A program made the position numbers and the translations under genes. The notes below the pieces were generated by a model that worked only from the letters and a program-made list of their open reading frames with translations, made no database searches and was not told the origin of the DNA. Positions 1 through 7,355 of a stretch of DNA of 64,000 nucleotides are shown in pieces; the first letter of the stretch is position 1, and each line of letters starts with the position of its first letter. The stretch comes from Sulfuricaulis limicola (GTDB lineage: Bacteria; Pseudomonadota; Gammaproteobacteria; Acidiferrobacterales; Sulfurifustaceae), in assembly GCF_002355735.1 (NCBI RefSeq), contig NZ_AP014879.1, positions 2,294,001-2,358,000 of the forward strand, read 5' to 3'.

Positions 1-101
1 TCGTTGCCGAATATCTGCGCGCGGCAAAAACCGTCCGCGTCGGCCAACCCTATATCCCCCGGCTCAAAGGTGCTTCCGGCAACCCCGGATACGCTGTCTG
101 A
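1..101 (+). CDS. 3' end of an unidentified gene (partial)
   Basis: Reading from base 3, an open frame runs in from the left edge and stops with TGA at 99-101, giving about 32 residues that end in NPGYAV. Codon third positions are fairly GC-rich, as in neighbouring genes. The fragment is too short to name. The opposite strand also carries a 60-codon open frame at 50-232 with no recognisable features, so this call is tentative. Bases 102-289 hold no gene I can support; a TAGAAT hexamer at 251-256 could be a -10 element for the next gene, but no good -35 precedes it. Confidence 0.3.
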   Translation, partial: VAEYLRAAKTVRVGQPYIPRLKGASGNPGYAV

Positions 102-289: not shown

Positions 290-1186
290 ATGTCCAAGAA
301 GCACCCGATCATCTCCATCACCGGCTCGAGCGGCGCCGGTACCTCCACCGTCAAGGTTGCTTTCGAGCATATTTTCCGGCGCTCGCAGATCAACCCGGCG
401 ATCGTGGAGGGCGACAGCTTCCACCGTTATAACCGCGCCGAAATGCGGCAAGCGATGATCAAGGCCGAGGCCGAGGGCAATCGCAACTTCAGCCATTTCG
501 GTCCCGAGGCCAACATTTTCGAGGAGCTGGAAAAACAGTTCAAGACCTACGGCGAGACCGGTACCGGCAAGAAACGCTACTACCTGCACAACGACGATGA
601 AGCCGCTGTGCATAACAAGCGGCTTGGCACGTCGCTCAAGGGCGGCGAGTTCACGCCGTGGGAAGACATCCCCCCCGGCACCGATCTCCTGTTCTACGAA
701 GGCCTGCACGGCGGCGTGGTGGACGCCAAGGCCGGCGTCGACGTCGCCAAGTGGGTGGATCTGCTGGTCGGCGTGGTGCCGATCGTCAATCTCGAATGGA
801 TCCAGAAAATTCAGCGCGACACCGCCGAACGCGGTTATTCCGCCGAGGCCGTGGTGGACACCATTCTGCGCCGCATGTACGACTACGTGCATTACATCAC
901 GCCGCAATTCTCGCGCTCGCACATCGACTTTCAGCGCGTGCCGGTGGTGGACACCTCCAATCCCTTCATCGCGCGCGACATCCCCACCGCAGACGAGAGC
1001 CTGGTCGTGATCCGTTTCCGCGACCCCAAGAACGTCGATTTCCCCTACTTTCTGAGCATGATCAACGGCTCGTTCATGTCCCGCCCCAACACCATCGTCG
1101 TGCCCGGCGGCAAGATGGGCTTCGCCATGGAAATCATCCTCACGCCGATAATTCACAAACTGCTTGAAAACAAAAAGAAAGCTTAA
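290..1186 (+). CDS. prkB: phosphoribulokinase (PrkB type)
   Basis: This is a 298-residue phosphoribulokinase of the proteobacterial class (usual length about 290). It phosphorylates ribulose 5-phosphate with ATP to make ribulose 1,5-bisphosphate, the CO2 acceptor of the Calvin cycle. A P-loop GSSGAGTS lies at residues 12-19, followed by the family's VEGDSFHRY and FYEGLHGG segments. The ATG has an AAGGAAC ribosome-binding site about 8 bases upstream. No RuBisCO or other Calvin gene lies in the window, so autotrophy is suggested rather than shown. Some heterotrophs such as E. coli carry a homologue of unclear role. Confidence 0.93.
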   Translation: MSKKHPIISITGSSGAGTSTVKVAFEHIFRRSQINPAIVEGDSFHRYNRAEMRQAMIKAEAEGNRNFSHFGPEANIFEELEKQFKTYGETGTGKKRYYLHNDDEAAVHNKRLGTSLKGGEFTPWEDIPPGTDLLFYEGLHGGVVDAKAGVDVAKWVDLLVGVVPIVNLEWIQKIQRDTAERGYSAEAVVDTILRRMYDYVHYITPQFSRSHIDFQRVPVVDTSNPFIARDIPTADESLVVIRFRDPKNVDFPYFLSMINGSFMSRPNTIVVPGGKMGFAMEIILTPIIHKLLENKKKA

Positions 1187-1254
1187 GCCGTTCGCGCCTT
1201 CCCGACAGTGAAATTCGCGCCGTTTTGGCGCGAAACTTGCTGTATCTTTATGAT

Positions 1255-2538
1255 ATGAAAAAGAAGATTGCCGTACAGGATCTTCAGCGCGGCATGTATG
1301 TCTCCGAGCTGGTGGGCCGCCATTGGCGCGAAACGCCGTTCCTGTTCCAGGGCTTCGAGATCCAGTCGGACGAACAGATCGAGGAAATCGGTCGCTATTG
1401 CCGGCACGTCTATATCGACACCGAACAGGGAATCGACGTGTCGTCGAGGCCCCGTCCGACCGCCAGCACATCGCCGATCCTGATTGTGCCTCCGGAGAAA
1501 AAAGAACCCATCATAAAATTTGAAAAGGTGATCGAACGGTTTGCGCCGGGTCACCGGCGCCCGCCGCGCTACCAGGACGTCACCACGCTCGAGGAGGAGA
1601 TCGGCCACGCCCGGGAAATCGTCACCGAAACCCGCGAGGCCGTGTACGACATCATGACCGACGTGCGCCTCGGCCGCTCAATCAACACCACCGCCGCCAA
1701 GAAGGTCGTGGCCGACATGGTGGACAGCGTCATCCGCAATCCGGACGCGCTCATGTGCCTCAACCAGCTCAAGGACAAGGACGAGTACACCGCGCTGCAC
1801 AGCCTGCGGGTCTGCGTGCTGGCACTGGCCTTTGGCCGGCACCTGGATCTCACGGACGAAGAACTGAATCTTCTCGGTATCGGCGCGCTGCTGCACGATA
1901 TCGGCAAGATGAAAGTTCCGAATGACATCATCAACAAGCCGGGCAAGCTCACCGACGAGGAATTTTCCCTCATGAAGAGTCACGTCCCGCAGGGCGTCGG
2001 CATCCTCGAACAGACGCACGGCATCTCTTCCGTCTCCATCGATGTCGCGCGTTACCATCATGAACGTTACGCCGGCGGGGGCTACGCCAACGGATCCAAG
2101 GGCGATCAGATCGGACTCTTTGGATCCATCGGGGGCATCGTGGATTGCTACGACGCCATCACCTCGGATCGTTCTTACCATGCCGGGCTGTCAGCGCACG
2201 ATGCGCTCACGAAAATGTACTCCTGGCGCGGCCGGGATTTCCAGCCGCTGCTGGTAGAGCAGTTCATCCAGTGCATGGGTATCTACCCCATCGGCAGCGT
2301 CGTCGAGCTCAACAATGGCAGTATCGGGGTGGTCGTCTCCATCAACCGCACGCGCCGCCTCAGACCCAAGGTGGCGATGGTACTCAATTCCGACAAAACG
2401 CCCTTCACACCGGCCAAGGTTATCGATCTCATGCACGAGGGATCCGAAGGCGCCCACCGGGGACTGGAGATCCGCAAGGTGCTGCCGCCGGGCGAGCACG
2501 GCGTGATTCCCACCAAATACATTCCCCTCGGCGCCTGA
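1255..2538 (+). CDS. DUF3391 / HD-GYP-type domain protein with degenerate GYP motif
   Basis: The 427-residue protein has an N-terminal DUF3391 region (about residues 1-90), a linker, and an HD-GYP-type metal-dependent phosphohydrolase domain, the class that hydrolyses cyclic di-GMP. HDIGK is intact (HD at 214-215) and HHER follows at 268-271. The signature normally reading DG-x-GYP is AGGGYANG here, so the Asp and Pro of the motif are missing. Catalysis or partner binding may therefore differ. I chose the ATG at 1255 because the DUF3391 homology begins there; a TTG at 1225 is in frame, and neither has a convincing Shine-Dalgarno sequence. There are no membrane segments, so it is probably cytoplasmic. 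Confidence 0.85.
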   Translation: MKKKIAVQDLQRGMYVSELVGRHWRETPFLFQGFEIQSDEQIEEIGRYCRHVYIDTEQGIDVSSRPRPTASTSPILIVPPEKKEPIIKFEKVIERFAPGHRRPPRYQDVTTLEEEIGHAREIVTETREAVYDIMTDVRLGRSINTTAAKKVVADMVDSVIRNPDALMCLNQLKDKDEYTALHSLRVCVLALAFGRHLDLTDEELNLLGIGALLHDIGKMKVPNDIINKPGKLTDEEFSLMKSHVPQGVGILEQTHGISSVSIDVARYHHERYAGGGYANGSKGDQIGLFGSIGGIVDCYDAITSDRSYHAGLSAHDALTKMYSWRGRDFQPLLVEQFIQCMGIYPIGSVVELNNGSIGVVVSINRTRRLRPKVAMVLNSDKTPFTPAKVIDLMHEGSEGAHRGLEIRKVLPPGEHGVIPTKYIPLGA

Positions 2539-2692: not shown

Positions 2693-3319
2693 ATGAGTGA
2701 CGCGTTGAATTATCTGGTCGGCGCCCGGCCCGAAGCGATGAAGGCCTATCTCAAGTTCCTGAAGGAAACGGGCAAATCGCTCGACCCCAAGACCCGCATG
2801 CTGATCACCGTCATCACCAAGATCGCGGTCCAGACCGAAGGCGGGCTCCGCCAGTATCTGCCGCGCGCGCTCGACGCCGGGGCCACGCCCAACGAGATCC
2901 TCGACGCCATTCTGCACGCCTTTCCCGCGCTCGGGCTGGCCAAGATCGTGTGGGCCGTCGATATCCTGCTCGACATGGATATCCCGGAGTTCCGCGCCGA
3001 GAATTTGGGCAAGGAAAAGCGCTGGCACGATGTCAAACCGGCAGACCAGATTCCGGAAGGCAAGATCACCTACTGCGACAGCGACGGGCGCAGCCTGTTC
3101 GTCTACCGCGTCAATGGCGAGTTCAGCGTCTACGACAGCCGCTGTCCGCATCAGGTCACCAATATTCCGCATCTGGCGCTGGAGGGTTTCCGGCTCACCT
3201 GCCCCAAGCATCATTGGGCCTTCGACATCAAAACCGGGGAGTGCGTGGAAAAGGGTAATCGGCCGCTGAAACGGTTCGAGTCCAAGGTGGAGAATGGCCG
3301 CTTGTTCGCACGCTGGTAA
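2693..3319 (+). CDS. carboxymuconolactone decarboxylase-like / Rieske ferredoxin fusion
   Basis: A 208-residue protein made of two parts. Residues about 1-100 resemble the CMD/AhpD-like helical fold but lack the CxxC redox pair of AhpD. Residues about 110-208 form a Rieske [2Fe-2S] domain with C151-P-H153, sixteen residues, then C170-P-K-H173, the full ligand set. The domain order and the absence of a signal peptide point to a small cytoplasmic electron carrier or a self-contained redox protein; the substrate is unknown. A good ribosome-binding site (AGGAGAG) precedes the ATG. The next gene starts 12 bases after the stop, so they are probably co-transcribed. Confidence 0.8.
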   Translation: MSDALNYLVGARPEAMKAYLKFLKETGKSLDPKTRMLITVITKIAVQTEGGLRQYLPRALDAGATPNEILDAILHAFPALGLAKIVWAVDILLDMDIPEFRAENLGKEKRWHDVKPADQIPEGKITYCDSDGRSLFVYRVNGEFSVYDSRCPHQVTNIPHLALEGFRLTCPKHHWAFDIKTGECVEKGNRPLKRFESKVENGRLFARW

Positions 3320-3331
3320 ACCGCGATTCGG

Positions 3332-3811
3332 GTGGATGAACACGACATGACGGGATACTTCACCCCCGCGGAGATCGTCGCGCAGCTGCGGGACGACCGG
3401 CCGCGCGGGAAATGCCGGCACGAGGACAAACGCGCCGGGCTGACGACGCAGATACAGCAGGACATCGCGCGCCTGATCTGCACCGCGAGCGACACCAATT
3501 ATTTCAGTTACCTCATCACCAAGCGCGGCGAACTGGCGCTGGTCATCGGCGTGCGCGGCGATCCGCAAAACCGCACCGTCACCCTCGAGCTCATCCGGCA
3601 TCGCCGGCGCATCGCCTATTTTTCCTACAGCGATCCGGTACTGAGCATACAGGACCTGCGCCAGCGCAAAAGCATGACCGAACGCACGGGAGCCAATGCG
3701 CTCAGGATTCTCTCCGACGAAGGCTCGCTTACCCATCTGATCGCCATGCGCGCCCTGCTCTACGAGAAACTGCCCGCCAAGGGGCGAGCACTCACGCTGC
3801 TGGCGAATTGA
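3332..3811 (+). CDS. conserved-looking hypothetical protein, 159 aa
   Basis: I do not recognise the family. The 159-residue product starts at GTG 3332, or possibly at ATG 3347, which would make it 154 residues; neither start has a strong ribosome-binding site. It is soluble and mixed alpha/beta in appearance, with many basic and Thr residues, and no signal peptide or membrane segment. Its position 12 bp after the CMD-Rieske gene suggests an operon. Its 3' end overlaps the convergent thpR by 20 bp, and codon usage matches its neighbours, so it is likely a real gene. Confidence 0.65.
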   Translation: MDEHDMTGYFTPAEIVAQLRDDRPRGKCRHEDKRAGLTTQIQQDIARLICTASDTNYFSYLITKRGELALVIGVRGDPQNRTVTLELIRHRRRIAYFSYSDPVLSIQDLRQRKSMTERTGANALRILSDEGSLTHLIAMRALLYEKLPAKGRALTLLAN

Positions 3812-4355
3812 GCGGCCAGGAACGCAGAATTTCGTAGCGCGCGCCGCCGGCATGTGTATGTGATCGCACCAGATGGAACCGGTTTATCTCCCACGCGCGG
3901 GGTTCCATGGAAGCAACGGCGTTATGCAGATGCGTCTTGCGTGCGAGCGTCAGGTGCGCCGCGTAGGGACGCTTCTCCGCATCATAGCCGCAAGCGACAA
4001 GCCCGGCATTCAGCTCCTGCACCAGCTGTATCAATAGCGATGGGGTCTGATTCGGACCCGCCCACAGGATGCCGGGCTTTGGCCAATAACCCATCTGTTC
4101 AAGCATCAGCGTGAAAGATGTGGCGCGAATCGCGGTGGCCGCCTGCTCGGCACATTCCCGGAACGACGCGTTAACCGAACCCAGGAAGGCCAGCGTCAGA
4201 TGAATATTCTCCGGCGCCACGCGTCGGCCGGCGCCGCCGCGCAAAGCATTGCCGGCGAGCCGGTGAAGTTCGCGGCTCAATTCGGCCGGCGGCCACAGCG
4301 CAAAGAACAGTCGCTGTGTCGGCGTTGCTGGCAACGGTGTGGTGACAGGAGTCAT
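3792..4355 (-). CDS. thpR: RNA 2',3'-cyclic phosphodiesterase (2'-5' RNA ligase family)
   Basis: The 187-residue protein belongs to the 2H phosphoesterase superfamily. Both HxTx catalytic motifs are present: HLTL at 52-55 and HLTL at 134-137. The bacterial family opens 2',3'-cyclic phosphates on RNA and can ligate tRNA halves through a 2'-5' bond in vitro. N-terminal QRLFFALWP is the usual start of the fold, so the first dozen residues may be a dispensable extension. It converges on the unknown ORF at 3332-3811 and overlaps it by 20 bp. Confidence 0.88.
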   Translation of the reverse strand: MTPVTTPLPATPTQRLFFALWPPAELSRELHRLAGNALRGGAGRRVAPENIHLTLAFLGSVNASFRECAEQAATAIRATSFTLMLEQMGYWPKPGILWAGPNQTPSLLIQLVQELNAGLVACGYDAEKRPYAAHLTLARKTHLHNAVASMEPRAWEINRFHLVRSHTHAGGARYEILRSWPLNSPAA

Positions 4356-4609: not shown

Positions 4610-5749
4610 TTACGGGCCGGGAGCGGGCAGCAGCTTCATGTCCGCCAGTGACAGTCTCAGCGAGCGCCAGAACGGCTGCTCGTCAAGCATGTGGCCCTGC
4701 ACCTTCATGGTCAGCGCCGCGCCGAAGATGATCGTGAACAGCGTGATCACCGAGCCGAACGCCAGCGTGGACATGCCGGTGACGCCCTGGCCGATGGTGC
4801 AACCGAGCGCGATGACGCCGCCAAAACCCATCAGCACGCCGCCGATGACGTGATTTACCATATCCTCGCGCGAGCTGAAGGTTTCGATGCGGAAAGTGCC
4901 CGACACCAAGGCATACAGAAACGAACCGGTGATGATGCCGAATACGGCGGCGATGCCGAAGTTGATGGTGGAGCCTGTATAGGTCATCAGGTAATTCAGG
5001 TTCTCCGCCACCGGCGCGACGAAGGTGTAGGACTCCAGCCGCACCGGCTCGAATTCGTCAAAGCCGAGTTTGCCGGTGATGTACCAGCCGGCGACGACGA
5101 GCAGGCCGATGCTGGTCCCGGCAAAAAGATTCTTGTAGCTGGCGAGGAATTCCCTGCTCGCCAGCGCATAGAGGGTGAAGCCGAGGCCGACGACGGCCGC
5201 CACCACCCAGCGTACCGCCTGCATGTCGGTCGCGCCGGCCAGTGATTGAATCAGTGTCGCGATGCCCTGATCCGGCACGTTGCGCGCGGCCAGGTCCAGG
5301 TTCGTGACCTCGATGGCGTTGATGCGCACCGGCGCAATCAGTCCGCGCAAGGTCATGTAAGCGGTGATGGCCATCAACAGCATCACCACCAGCGATTTCA
5401 GGTTACCGCCACCGAACCGCACCAGGGTGCGCTGCCCGCAGCCGCCGCCCAGGGTCATGCCGACGCCGAAGAGAAACCCGCCGAGGGCGTGACCGAGCCA
5501 GCCGAAATTGGCCGTGAGATAAATGGACTGGCCGAGGTCGACCACTCCCCATGCCTGCATCAGCTGCGTGCCGATGATGGCGACGCCGATGGCGAGAAAC
5601 CACGCCCGCAGACGGTTCTTGTCGTCCATGTTCACCCAGTCGCTGACCGCGCCCATGGTGCAGAAATTGGTCTTGTTGGCGATGGCGCCGAACACCACGG
5701 CCGCCAGAAAACCCCACAGCGCCACGTTCTGAACATTACTCAGTTCCAT
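4610..5749 (-). CDS. YeeE/YedE family sulfur-compound permease
   Basis: The 379-residue inner-membrane protein has about ten hydrophobic segments. It carries the cysteine-centred signatures of the YeeE/YedE (TsuA) family: TNFCTMG (C30), GGGCGQRT (C104), and a third Cys in ALGCTIGQG in the C-terminal half. TsuA-type members pass thiosulfate along a path of cysteines, and shorter relatives move other sulfur species. The gene lies divergent to tusA with a 243-bp spacer, which fits a role in supplying sulfur to the TusA/DsrEFH relay. A GGGGGT tract precedes the ATG as ribosome-binding site. Confidence 0.88.
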   Translation of the reverse strand: MELSNVQNVALWGFLAAVVFGAIANKTNFCTMGAVSDWVNMDDKNRLRAWFLAIGVAIIGTQLMQAWGVVDLGQSIYLTANFGWLGHALGGFLFGVGMTLGGGCGQRTLVRFGGGNLKSLVVMLLMAITAYMTLRGLIAPVRINAIEVTNLDLAARNVPDQGIATLIQSLAGATDMQAVRWVVAAVVGLGFTLYALASREFLASYKNLFAGTSIGLLVVAGWYITGKLGFDEFEPVRLESYTFVAPVAENLNYLMTYTGSTINFGIAAVFGIITGSFLYALVSGTFRIETFSSREDMVNHVIGGVLMGFGGVIALGCTIGQGVTGMSTLAFGSVITLFTIIFGAALTMKVQGHMLDEQPFWRSLRLSLADMKLLPAPGP

Positions 5750-5992: not shown

Positions 5993-6226
5993 ATGCCGAC
6001 GTTTGATAAAGAACTGGACACCTCGGGACTCAACTGCCCCATGCCCGTTATGAAAACCAAGAAAATGCTGCAATCACTGGAGGCAGGACAGGTGCTGCAT
6101 CTGCTGGCCACGGATGTTGGCACCAAGAGCGATATTCCCGCCCTGGTGAACAAAACCGGCGATCAGATCGTCGAGACCAGCGAAGAAGGCGGCAAGTTTC
6201 ACTTCTATATCAGGAAGGCTTCCTGA
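5993..6226 (+). CDS. tusA: TusA/SirA family sulfur carrier
   Basis: This 77-residue TusA-like protein has the CPxP motif (C15-P-M-P18) that carries a persulfide. TusA proteins shuttle sulfane sulfur between desulfurases, rhodaneses and DsrEFH/TusBCD, either for tRNA thiolation or, in sulfur oxidisers, for dissimilatory oxidation. A GAGGT ribosome-binding site precedes the ATG. It sits between the divergent YeeE permease gene and the convergent dsrH/tusB gene, so the sulfur genes form one locus on both strands. Confidence 0.92.
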   Translation: MPTFDKELDTSGLNCPMPVMKTKKMLQSLEAGQVLHLLATDVGTKSDIPALVNKTGDQIVETSEEGGKFHFYIRKAS

Positions 6227-6278: not shown

Positions 6279-6572
6279 CTACAGCCAGGCGTGCACCGGG
6301 TGCTGTTCCACCAGATCGACAAAATCGCCGTAGCTCGCGACGCGGACCTCCTTGACGAGATTCGCCAGGCCGCGCGCCTTCAGATCGGCGTCGATGGCAT
6401 AAACCGTGTGCCGTTTCACGGCCTGCTCGATCAGGGACGATTTCGCCGTTCCCGCGGATGCCGCGTACACGCCGTCTTCCAGCAACAGGATGACATCGCC
6501 CGGCTGCGCCACGCGCAGGCAATTTTCCAGCGAGCTGTTCTGGAATGGCGACTTGTTGACGGTATGGAGCAT
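6279..6572 (-). CDS. DsrH/TusB family sulfur relay subunit
   Basis: A 97-residue DsrH/TusB-like protein, the third gene of the dsrE-dsrF-dsrH order. Cys18 sits where the sulfur-accepting Cys20 of the Allochromatium DsrH is found; E. coli TusB lacks that Cys, so the protein leans toward the sulfur-oxidiser DsrH type. The subunit joins the other two in a heterohexamer that moves sulfane sulfur to and from TusA. The stop is followed by a strong terminator. The ATG lies 9 bp after the dsrF stop. Confidence 0.85.
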   Translation of the reverse strand: MLHTVNKSPFQNSSLENCLRVAQPGDVILLLEDGVYAASAGTAKSSLIEQAVKRHTVYAIDADLKARGLANLVKEVRVASYGDFVDLVEQHPVHAWL

Positions 6573-6581
6573 GGGAATTTC

Positions 6582-6983
6582 CTAGAATGACACGATGCTG
6601 TGCTGCGCCGCCATCATCGCAGCGATCTCGGCGCTGTCCAGGACCCGGGGCCGGATCGGCGCGTCGGTCTCTTCGTCCCTGCCGATCGTGATGATCGCAT
6701 CCTCGGAAATATTCCGGTCCTTGAGCGACTGCCGATCGACGTAAACTTTCGTCACCTCCCAGTCCACCAGGGCGCCGAGCGAGGCCATGAAGCCCTTGAT
6801 ACCGAGTCCCTTCGTGTCCTGGCCCGGGTGCAGGGCCAGCACGCCGTCATCCAGGAACACCACCGACAGTTCCATGTCGTAGGTCGCGAAGATGAACATG
6901 ACCTCGATGGATTCCTGCACGTAGATGCTGCCGTGCGGCGCCTTGCGCACCGTCACCATGACCTTTTTTCCCGTCGCCGCCAT
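6582..6983 (-). CDS. DsrF/TusC family sulfur relay subunit
   Basis: The 133-residue protein matches the DsrF/TusC layer of the DsrE fold, with the hallmark VFLDDGVLAL segment in the first half and a terminal HSIVSF. It has no cysteine, which is normal for DsrF, a structural subunit of the DsrEFH/TusBCD hexamer. It is co-transcribed with the flanking subunit genes, with gaps of 15 bp upstream and 9 bp downstream. Confidence 0.86.
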   Translation of the reverse strand: MAATGKKVMVTVRKAPHGSIYVQESIEVMFIFATYDMELSVVFLDDGVLALHPGQDTKGLGIKGFMASLGALVDWEVTKVYVDRQSLKDRNISEDAIITIGRDEETDAPIRPRVLDSAEIAAMMAAQHSIVSF

Positions 6984-6998
6984 CAGATCCGCCCTGTA

Positions 6999-7355
6999 TC
7001 AGTCGCCAAAAGTGACCAGCCGGTCGGCTTCGTCGATCAGGCTCGCCAGCTGGCCCAGACCCGAGATGCGGATATTCGGCACCAGCACCTCGTTGGTGAT
7101 GCCGCGGCGCTTGGCCGCGGCGACGCAGACGATCATGTCGATGCCGGTCGCGCCCAGTTCCGACCAGCGTTTGGAGATATGCCGGTCGTCCTGCGGCGGA
7201 TCCATGAGCCGGGTGGCGTTGTACACGCCGTCGTCGTAGAAAAAGATGCCGCGGATGGTATGGCCCTTGGCGAGGGCGGCCTGGATGAAGTTGTACGCGC
7301 TGTCAGAGGCTTCGTGATTGTAGGGGCCTTCCAGAACCAGAACCGATAATTTCAT
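6999..7355 (-). CDS. DsrE/TusD family sulfurtransferase subunit
   Basis: A 118-residue DsrE/TusD protein and the first gene of the triplet. The catalytic cysteine is Cys77 in MIVCVAAAKRRG, matching the active Cys78 of TusD/DsrE. It exchanges persulfide sulfur with TusA. No dsrC/tusE or dsrAB gene follows in the window, so the locus could serve either tRNA 2-thiolation or the sHdr/TusA branch of sulfur oxidation; the Cys in the DsrH partner favours the second. A 105-bp gap separates it from queC upstream. Confidence 0.88.
   Translation of the reverse strand: MKLSVLVLEGPYNHEASDSAYNFIQAALAKGHTIRGIFFYDDGVYNATRLMDPPQDDRHISKRWSELGATGIDMIVCVAAAKRRGITNEVLVPNIRISGLGQLASLIDEADRLVTFGD

Follow-up and report, generated by a model that had tools for sequence, protein, structure and literature searches.

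What does a protein do in which a carboxymuconolactone decarboxylase (CMD)-like domain is joined to a Rieske domain, and does the gene directly behind it belong to the same function? The question is raised by a locus near the left end of the window, i.e. the whole stretch of 64,000 nucleotides of Sulfuricaulis limicola analysed here, where the two genes had been taken in a preliminary description for a small redox unit. Both domains as such are known, and the CMD-Rieske architecture is surely present in databases already; a literature search returned no description of the fusion or of its link to sulfur, and descriptions under other names would have escaped that search. In the genome, which consists of one contig of 2,864,672 bases, there is no second full-length copy of the fusion, only two Rieske-only matches at 28-29%. 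The features of the locus are listed in Table 1. The SoxB profile TIGR04486 matches at 2292374-2294071 of the contig, up to window position 71, and the soxB frame stops at about 99-101, which places the end of soxB 2.6 kb before the fusion. On the other side, a gene for a LigT-type 2'-5' RNA ligase/phosphoesterase (3792-4355, minus strand) overlaps the 3' end of the second gene, and a LigT-type gene also follows the fusion across the window's family.

Table 1. Features around the CMD-Rieske fusion gene, in window positions.
Feature	Position	Strand	Remarks
soxB, 3' end	1..101	+	gene starts left of the window
prkB-type phosphoribulokinase	290..1186	+	PF00485, 3.3e-68
HD-domain (HD-GYP-like) protein with DUF3391	1225..2538	+	PF11871 and PF13487
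CMD-Rieske fusion gene	2693..3319	+	208 aa, ATG start; open reading frame, Pfam domains, AlphaFold2 model
CMD domain	2729..2968	+	residues 13-92; PF02627
Rieske [2Fe-2S] domain	3023..3253	+	residues 111-187; PF00355
Rieske ligand codons	C151 3143-3145, H153 3149-3151, C170 3200-3202, H173 3209-3211	+	
Cys184 codon	3242..3244	+	invariant; outside the four motif ligands
Second gene, 159-aa open reading frame	3332..3811	+	12 bp past the fusion; likely start ATG 3347

That a CMD-like domain is joined to a complete Rieske domain is borne out by Pfam, as both matches lie above the cut-off, PF02627 with 2.3e-11 and 43.9 bits (cut-off 23) and PF00355 with 8.7e-14. The same domain order was sought in other genomes, as the preliminary description had proposed, and the fusion turned out to be a widespread family. 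Among 60 related genomes, a full-length fusion of at least 66% identity is encoded in 17 including the own genome, plus a partial match (G014); in the 16 related genomes, the identity is 66-95% over the full length. A scan of a contig collection detected 289 stretches coding for a relative, and the best 80 of these 289, which were retained, are 64-92% identical over practically the whole length and come from gamma- and betaproteobacteria, including Thioalkalivibrio, Sedimenticola, Thiohalobacter, Woeseiaceae, and Lamellibrachia endosymbionts. In a sample of 321 genomes of the class, 30 had a match at 1e-20, of which 17 at 60% identity or more are termed window-like here (a cut that was set after the data had been seen), 10 full-length ones at 48-59% are termed diverged, and 3 are partial; the diverged fusions do not form one clade on the tree. 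In a sample of 329 genomes of the phylum, the 43 fusion-bearing genomes comprise the own one, a further two from the class (62-63%), and 40 (G425 to G595) of another class, which we take to be Magnetococcia, where the identity is 39-46% and the neighbours are varied. In IMG/VR, none of 12 pattern matches to the fusion was confirmed as a relative.

Conservation was assessed in an alignment of 125 sequences, composed of 97 window-like fusions, 10 diverged ones, and 18 of the 40 fusions in the other class. No part of the Rieske motif is lacking, with C151-P-H153 followed after 16 residues by C170-P-K-H173, and a loss of these ligands in homologues, which the preliminary description had named as a potential refutation, does not occur, since they are kept in all 125 sequences. 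The claim that the fusion is a redox protein, with the substrate left open, is supported by this complete conservation. Cys184 is likewise present in all 125. The CMD domain was rightly described as lacking the CxxC pair, which is found neither in residues 1-100 of the window protein nor in any aligned sequence. In the alignment to 3bey and 7y4r, the CxxC cysteines correspond to Thr48 and Gly51 and the histidine to Tyr55, and 2af7 likewise has a histidine where the fusion has Tyr55. Gly51 and Tyr55 occur in 125 and Thr48 in 122 of the 125 sequences. These replacements exclude the thiol chemistry of AhpD and leave the domain without the histidine of PcaC. Despite this loss of active-site residues, the CMD domain itself is strictly kept, with Lys43, Gly51, Gln54, Tyr55, Glu68, Asp71, Pro78, and Gly81 invariant throughout the alignment. 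The AlphaFold2 model of the fusion (pLDDT 89.8, pTM 0.76) has a Rieske half that best matches dioxygenase ferredoxins (2qpz, Z 14.2, rmsd 3.3 over 101 residues) and a CMD half with the helical fold of 2af7 (Z 10.9, rmsd 1.5 over 69 residues). The N-terminus MSDALNYL shows no signal peptide that would be evident by eye, which is why a cytoplasmic location is assumed. Both genes are more than chance reading frames, as their third codon positions vary most in comparison with three relatives and the fusion is kept over its full length in the 16 related genomes.

The gene behind the fusion is a real gene, but its start had been set too far upstream: instead of 159 aa at a distance of 12 bp, a product of 154 aa that begins with ATG 3347 after a gap of 27 bp is more likely, because the second protein of the relatives begins at the residue matching this ATG. 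In comparison with G006, the changes at the three codon positions amount to 20, 18, and 53 of 154 in the second gene and to 11, 6, and 66 of 208 in the fusion; the concentration of changes in third positions indicates coding constraint on the second gene, which evolves faster than the fusion. Its product is unrecognised, as had been stated, and at the limits used it has no match among the Pfam, NCBIfam, PHROGs, and PADLOC families or the PDB sequences; no relatives were found in PLSDB plasmids, none of 152 IMG/VR pattern matches was confirmed, and an AlphaFold2 model from three sequences was useless (pLDDT 38.9). The second gene occurs in 4 of 61 genomes (the own one, G002, G006, and G007), which all belong to one genus, and is each time the next gene after the fusion, with the same orientation, whereas the fusion-bearing congeners G001, G005, and G008 do not have it. 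Co-occurrence of the two genes had been named as a check, and it is found in only 4 of the 18 fusion-bearing relatives (the own genome and one partial match included), all in the window's genus. The pair as a small redox unit is refuted by the absence of the second gene in the other 14, which is the very observation that had been named beforehand as speaking against it. Although the direct succession on the same strand in four genomes and the coding constraint on both genes would suit a two-gene redox module, such a module is highly improbable in view of this narrow occurrence and of the faster evolution of the second gene. The second gene is a genus-level addition and not the partner of the fusion, which would act alone.

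The genomic surroundings of the fusion were mapped at 105 loci, namely the best 80 of the 289 stretches, the window, and 24 loci from whole genomes, with at least two pairs of duplicate sequence among them and a median of 8 kb of sequence on each side of the fusion. The neighbourhood of prkB and a signalling protein, as described for the window and recognised there by Pfam, is a trait of the window's family, but elsewhere the neighbours differ. In several lineages, these neighbours are sulfur-oxidation genes. There is dsrAB in 16 of the 105 loci and soxB in 12 others, and any gene of defined dsr or sox clusters is found in 34 loci, which is a minority; the 34, but not the 16, include two loci (L074 and L094) that have only a DsrC-family gene, which may be TusE. 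The dsrAB-linked loci are spread over two branches, one Woeseiaceae-like and one betaproteobacterial, with one further locus standing by itself, and on the tree the dsrAB-linked state requires 7 changes, of which at least 3 are forced by starred branches. In one locus (L073), the order is dsrB-dsrA (minus strand), a TauD-family gene, a CysG-family gene, the fusion (plus strand), HdrA/Qmo-like genes, and aprA-aprB (minus strand); dsrA, dsrB, aprA, and aprB are above curated cut-offs there, whereas the Hdr/Qmo-like genes match HdrA models below the cut-off, and the TauD and CysG genes were assigned through members of their clusters at other loci. About 40-50 bp separate the end of a TauD-family gene from the fusion in such betaproteobacterial loci as L118 and L078, where the dsr genes lie on the far side of the TauD-family gene. 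The window's family has soxA, soxB, prkB, usually the HD gene, and the fusion, in this order. In G286, the starts of soxB and the fusion are 337 bp apart on opposite strands, and in G655, dsrA is about 21 kb away from the fusion. As a matter of arithmetic, the chance that a given locus falls into a randomly placed 16-kb stretch is about 0.5% for a genome of 3 Mb. No dsr- or sox-type neighbours were recognised around 18 loci of the other class, and no constant neighbour that would name a substrate was found over the 105 loci and 20 more.

Several other genes recur near the fusion. In many dsr-linked loci, the fusion is preceded directly or at a short distance by the TauD-family gene (cluster 1, 18 loci; 5279-6151 in L114), which by description matches the dsrQ of the literature. 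According to the accessible part of a later article that cites Lenk et al. 2012 (PMC7596348), the TauD-like gene found next to dsr clusters goes by the name dsrQ; the words Rieske and carboxymuconolactone are absent from that part of the article. Like dsrQ, the fusion is a non-core gene that recurs near dsr, in several loci close behind the TauD-family gene, but it is another protein. Two conserved small proteins of about 70-80 aa (clusters 18 and 29, e.g. 6332-6577 in L114 and 6170-6370 in L101) are encoded near the fusion in several dsr-linked loci. A gene with a DUF6866 domain is convergent to the fusion in ten mostly betaproteobacterial loci, e.g. downstream in L118 and L078. Directly upstream of more diverged fusions, a small protein of about 146-180 aa with a membrane-anchor-like N-terminus is encoded in 7 loci (cluster 26; L162, L164, L167-L170, and L172), and this protein is a possible partner of the fusion in genomes without dsr.

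For the window-like fusions, the co-occurrence with whole pathways points in the same direction as the gene order. In the class sample, dsrA (TIGR02064) was detected in 104, soxB in 133, and RuBisCO in 161 of the 321 genomes. Genomes with a window-like fusion contain dsrA in 14 of 17 cases, as compared to 90 of the 304 others (Fisher p 2e-5), soxB in 13 of 17 versus 120 of 304 (p 0.004), and RuBisCO in 14 of 17 versus 147 of 304 (p 0.01), whereby all these p values are too small because the genomes are related. Among RuBisCO-positive genomes, dsrA is still more frequent with a window-like fusion (13 of 14 versus 78 of 147, p 0.004), and among soxB-positive genomes the numbers are 12 of 13 versus 78 of 120 (p 0.06). 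Given dsrA, soxB adds nothing (12 of 14 versus 78 of 90). Autotrophy was considered as the driver of the association and dismissed, as RuBisCO is enriched but adds nothing once dsrA is known. When all 30 matches of the class are pooled, dsrA is present in 15 of 30 versus 89 of 291 genomes (p 0.04). Of 50 further genomes that had been picked only for the fusion, 46 have dsrA, 41 of them above the curated cut-off, and 38 have RuBisCO; at least two of the 50 (those behind L091 and L093) are seemingly also in the class sample, and the dsrA search covered the contig-collection set except for loci L119-L134 (16 of the 80). There are also clear exceptions: both dsrA and soxB are absent from G195 and G219, two of the genomes that carry a window-like fusion, and none of the ten diverged fusions (48-59%) occurs together with dsrA or with soxB. 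Conversely, 89 of the 104 dsrA-positive genomes of the class have no fusion match, and Dsr thus does not depend on the fusion. In the order to which the window belongs, dsrA is found in 16 of 18 genomes with and 29 of 42 genomes without the fusion, which is no separation, and in the other class in 38 of 40 with and 6 of 8 without. In summary, a link of the fusion to the pathway of sulfur oxidation is supported by gene position at part of the loci, and the co-occurrence points to it for the window-like fusions, but not for the diverged ones and not within the window's order. Because there are diverged fusions without these pathways and most dsrA genomes have no fusion, the protein has to be regarded as an accessory component for certain physiologies and not as a core component.

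These exceptions are also what gives weight to a different explanation, according to which certain lineages of proteobacteria use the fusion for general electron transfer or redox housekeeping and its association with sulfur oxidation reflects shared ancestry. The full-length diverged fusions in 10 genomes of the class that lack dsrA and soxB would fit this, as would the variable neighbours (gatB-like, hrpA-like, and antiporter-like genes recognised by eye, for instance), the near-universal presence with unremarkable neighbours in one other class, and the failure of the fusion to discriminate dsrA within the window's order. It is difficult to reconcile with such a general role that the fusion is repeatedly found beside dsrAB or soxB in separate branches, and that the association with dsrA persists among RuBisCO-positive genomes. 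A housekeeping function is thus a serious possibility, but we would not bet on it. A redox sensor or regulator, with the Rieske cluster as the sensing part and the CMD domain as the part that conveys the redox state to partners, would also be in agreement with the absent CMD catalytic residues, the invariant Cys184 could be its redox switch, and an HD-type signalling gene adjoins the fusion in the window's family; yet the HD gene does not accompany the fusion throughout and Pfam reveals no output or DNA-binding domain, so that a regulator is improbable.

The relation to known families suggests still another role, as both the sequence and the fold of the Rieske half come closest to those of dioxygenase ferredoxins and PcaC belongs to the CMD family: the protein might be the ferredoxin of an aromatic-ring or other Rieske oxygenase, with a CMD domain from aromatic catabolism. 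The ferredoxins of naphthalene dioxygenase (2qpz) and 3-nitrotoluene dioxygenase (5bok) indeed share fold and ligand motif with the fusion and are 28-30% identical to it over about 100 residues, but in the fusion the Rieske domain is placed behind a CMD domain, Cys184 is invariant, and no oxygenase gene was recognised beside it in the mapped loci, as far as the searched part of the neighbours is concerned. No NCBIfam model for either component reaches its cut-off, with a best score of 39.6 bits versus 113 for the ferredoxin subunits (HcaC, AndAb, MocE) and 15 bits versus 155.7 for PcaC (TIGR02425). With the CMD/AhpD-like family (PF02627; 2af7, 3bey, 7y4r), the fusion has the profile and the helical fold in common, but it differs from AhpD and PcaC by the replacements at positions 48, 51, and 55, including that of the PcaC histidine, and no PcaC-related NCBIfam model recognises it. 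A role as oxygenase ferredoxin is therefore very unlikely.

The best explanation, to which we assign a probability of roughly 0.45, is that the fusion transfers electrons in the cytoplasm by means of a Rieske domain mounted on an oligomeric CMD scaffold, and that it serves mainly sulfur oxidation. The C-terminal domain, judged by its ligands, would carry a ferredoxin-type Rieske [2Fe-2S] cluster, and the N-terminal CMD domain, having lost the AhpD/PcaC-type residues, most likely serves as an oligomerisation scaffold and docking surface, so that the protein may be a soluble oligomer with one Rieske cluster per subunit. It would exchange single electrons with an enzyme that takes part in the oxidation of sulfane sulfur or sulfite in the cytoplasm, and the partner to or from which the electrons pass could be Dsr, Apr/Qmo, or a sulfite oxidation enzyme. 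In most window-like carriers, the fusion would thereby serve the cytoplasmic sulfur branch alongside the periplasmic Sox system. That it is a dedicated multimeric Rieske carrier in two classes, joining the cytoplasmic Dsr/Apr branch to an electron acceptor and possibly using Cys184 as a sulfur- or redox-active thiol, is conceivable but rather unlikely.

A set of DsrE/DsrF/DsrH-like genes within the window has to be kept apart from these considerations. DsrE- and DsrH-family genes, separated by a third gene, lie at 6279-7355 (minus strand), a TusA gene at 5993-6226 (plus strand), and a YeeE-type sulfur transporter gene at 4610-5749 (minus strand). The set at 6279-7355 was considered as a dsr link of the fusion and rejected, as the main dsr cluster is elsewhere and dsrA is far away. 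In the accessible part of the published annotation, the main dsr cluster has its own dsrEFH elsewhere in the genome (PMC5024460), and the words Rieske and carboxymuconolactone are absent from that part. The DsrE/DsrF/DsrH-like set of the window may belong to a TusBCD-type tRNA thiolation near queuosine genes or may be a second sulfur relay.

With the fusion, there is a concrete and testable gene for a small conserved iron-sulfur protein that tends to track sulfur oxidation in many uncultured as well as cultured oxidisers, and with Sulfuricaulis limicola HA5T there is a cultured host with a complete genome. The destination of the electrons in cytoplasmic sulfane-sulfur oxidation is still partly open, and the same is true for the accessory proteins that aerobic sulfur oxidisers use beyond Sox and Dsr. 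As the active-site residues of the CMD domain are lost while its fold is strictly kept, the protein would also be a clean case of an enzyme fold that is reused as the scaffold of an electron carrier.
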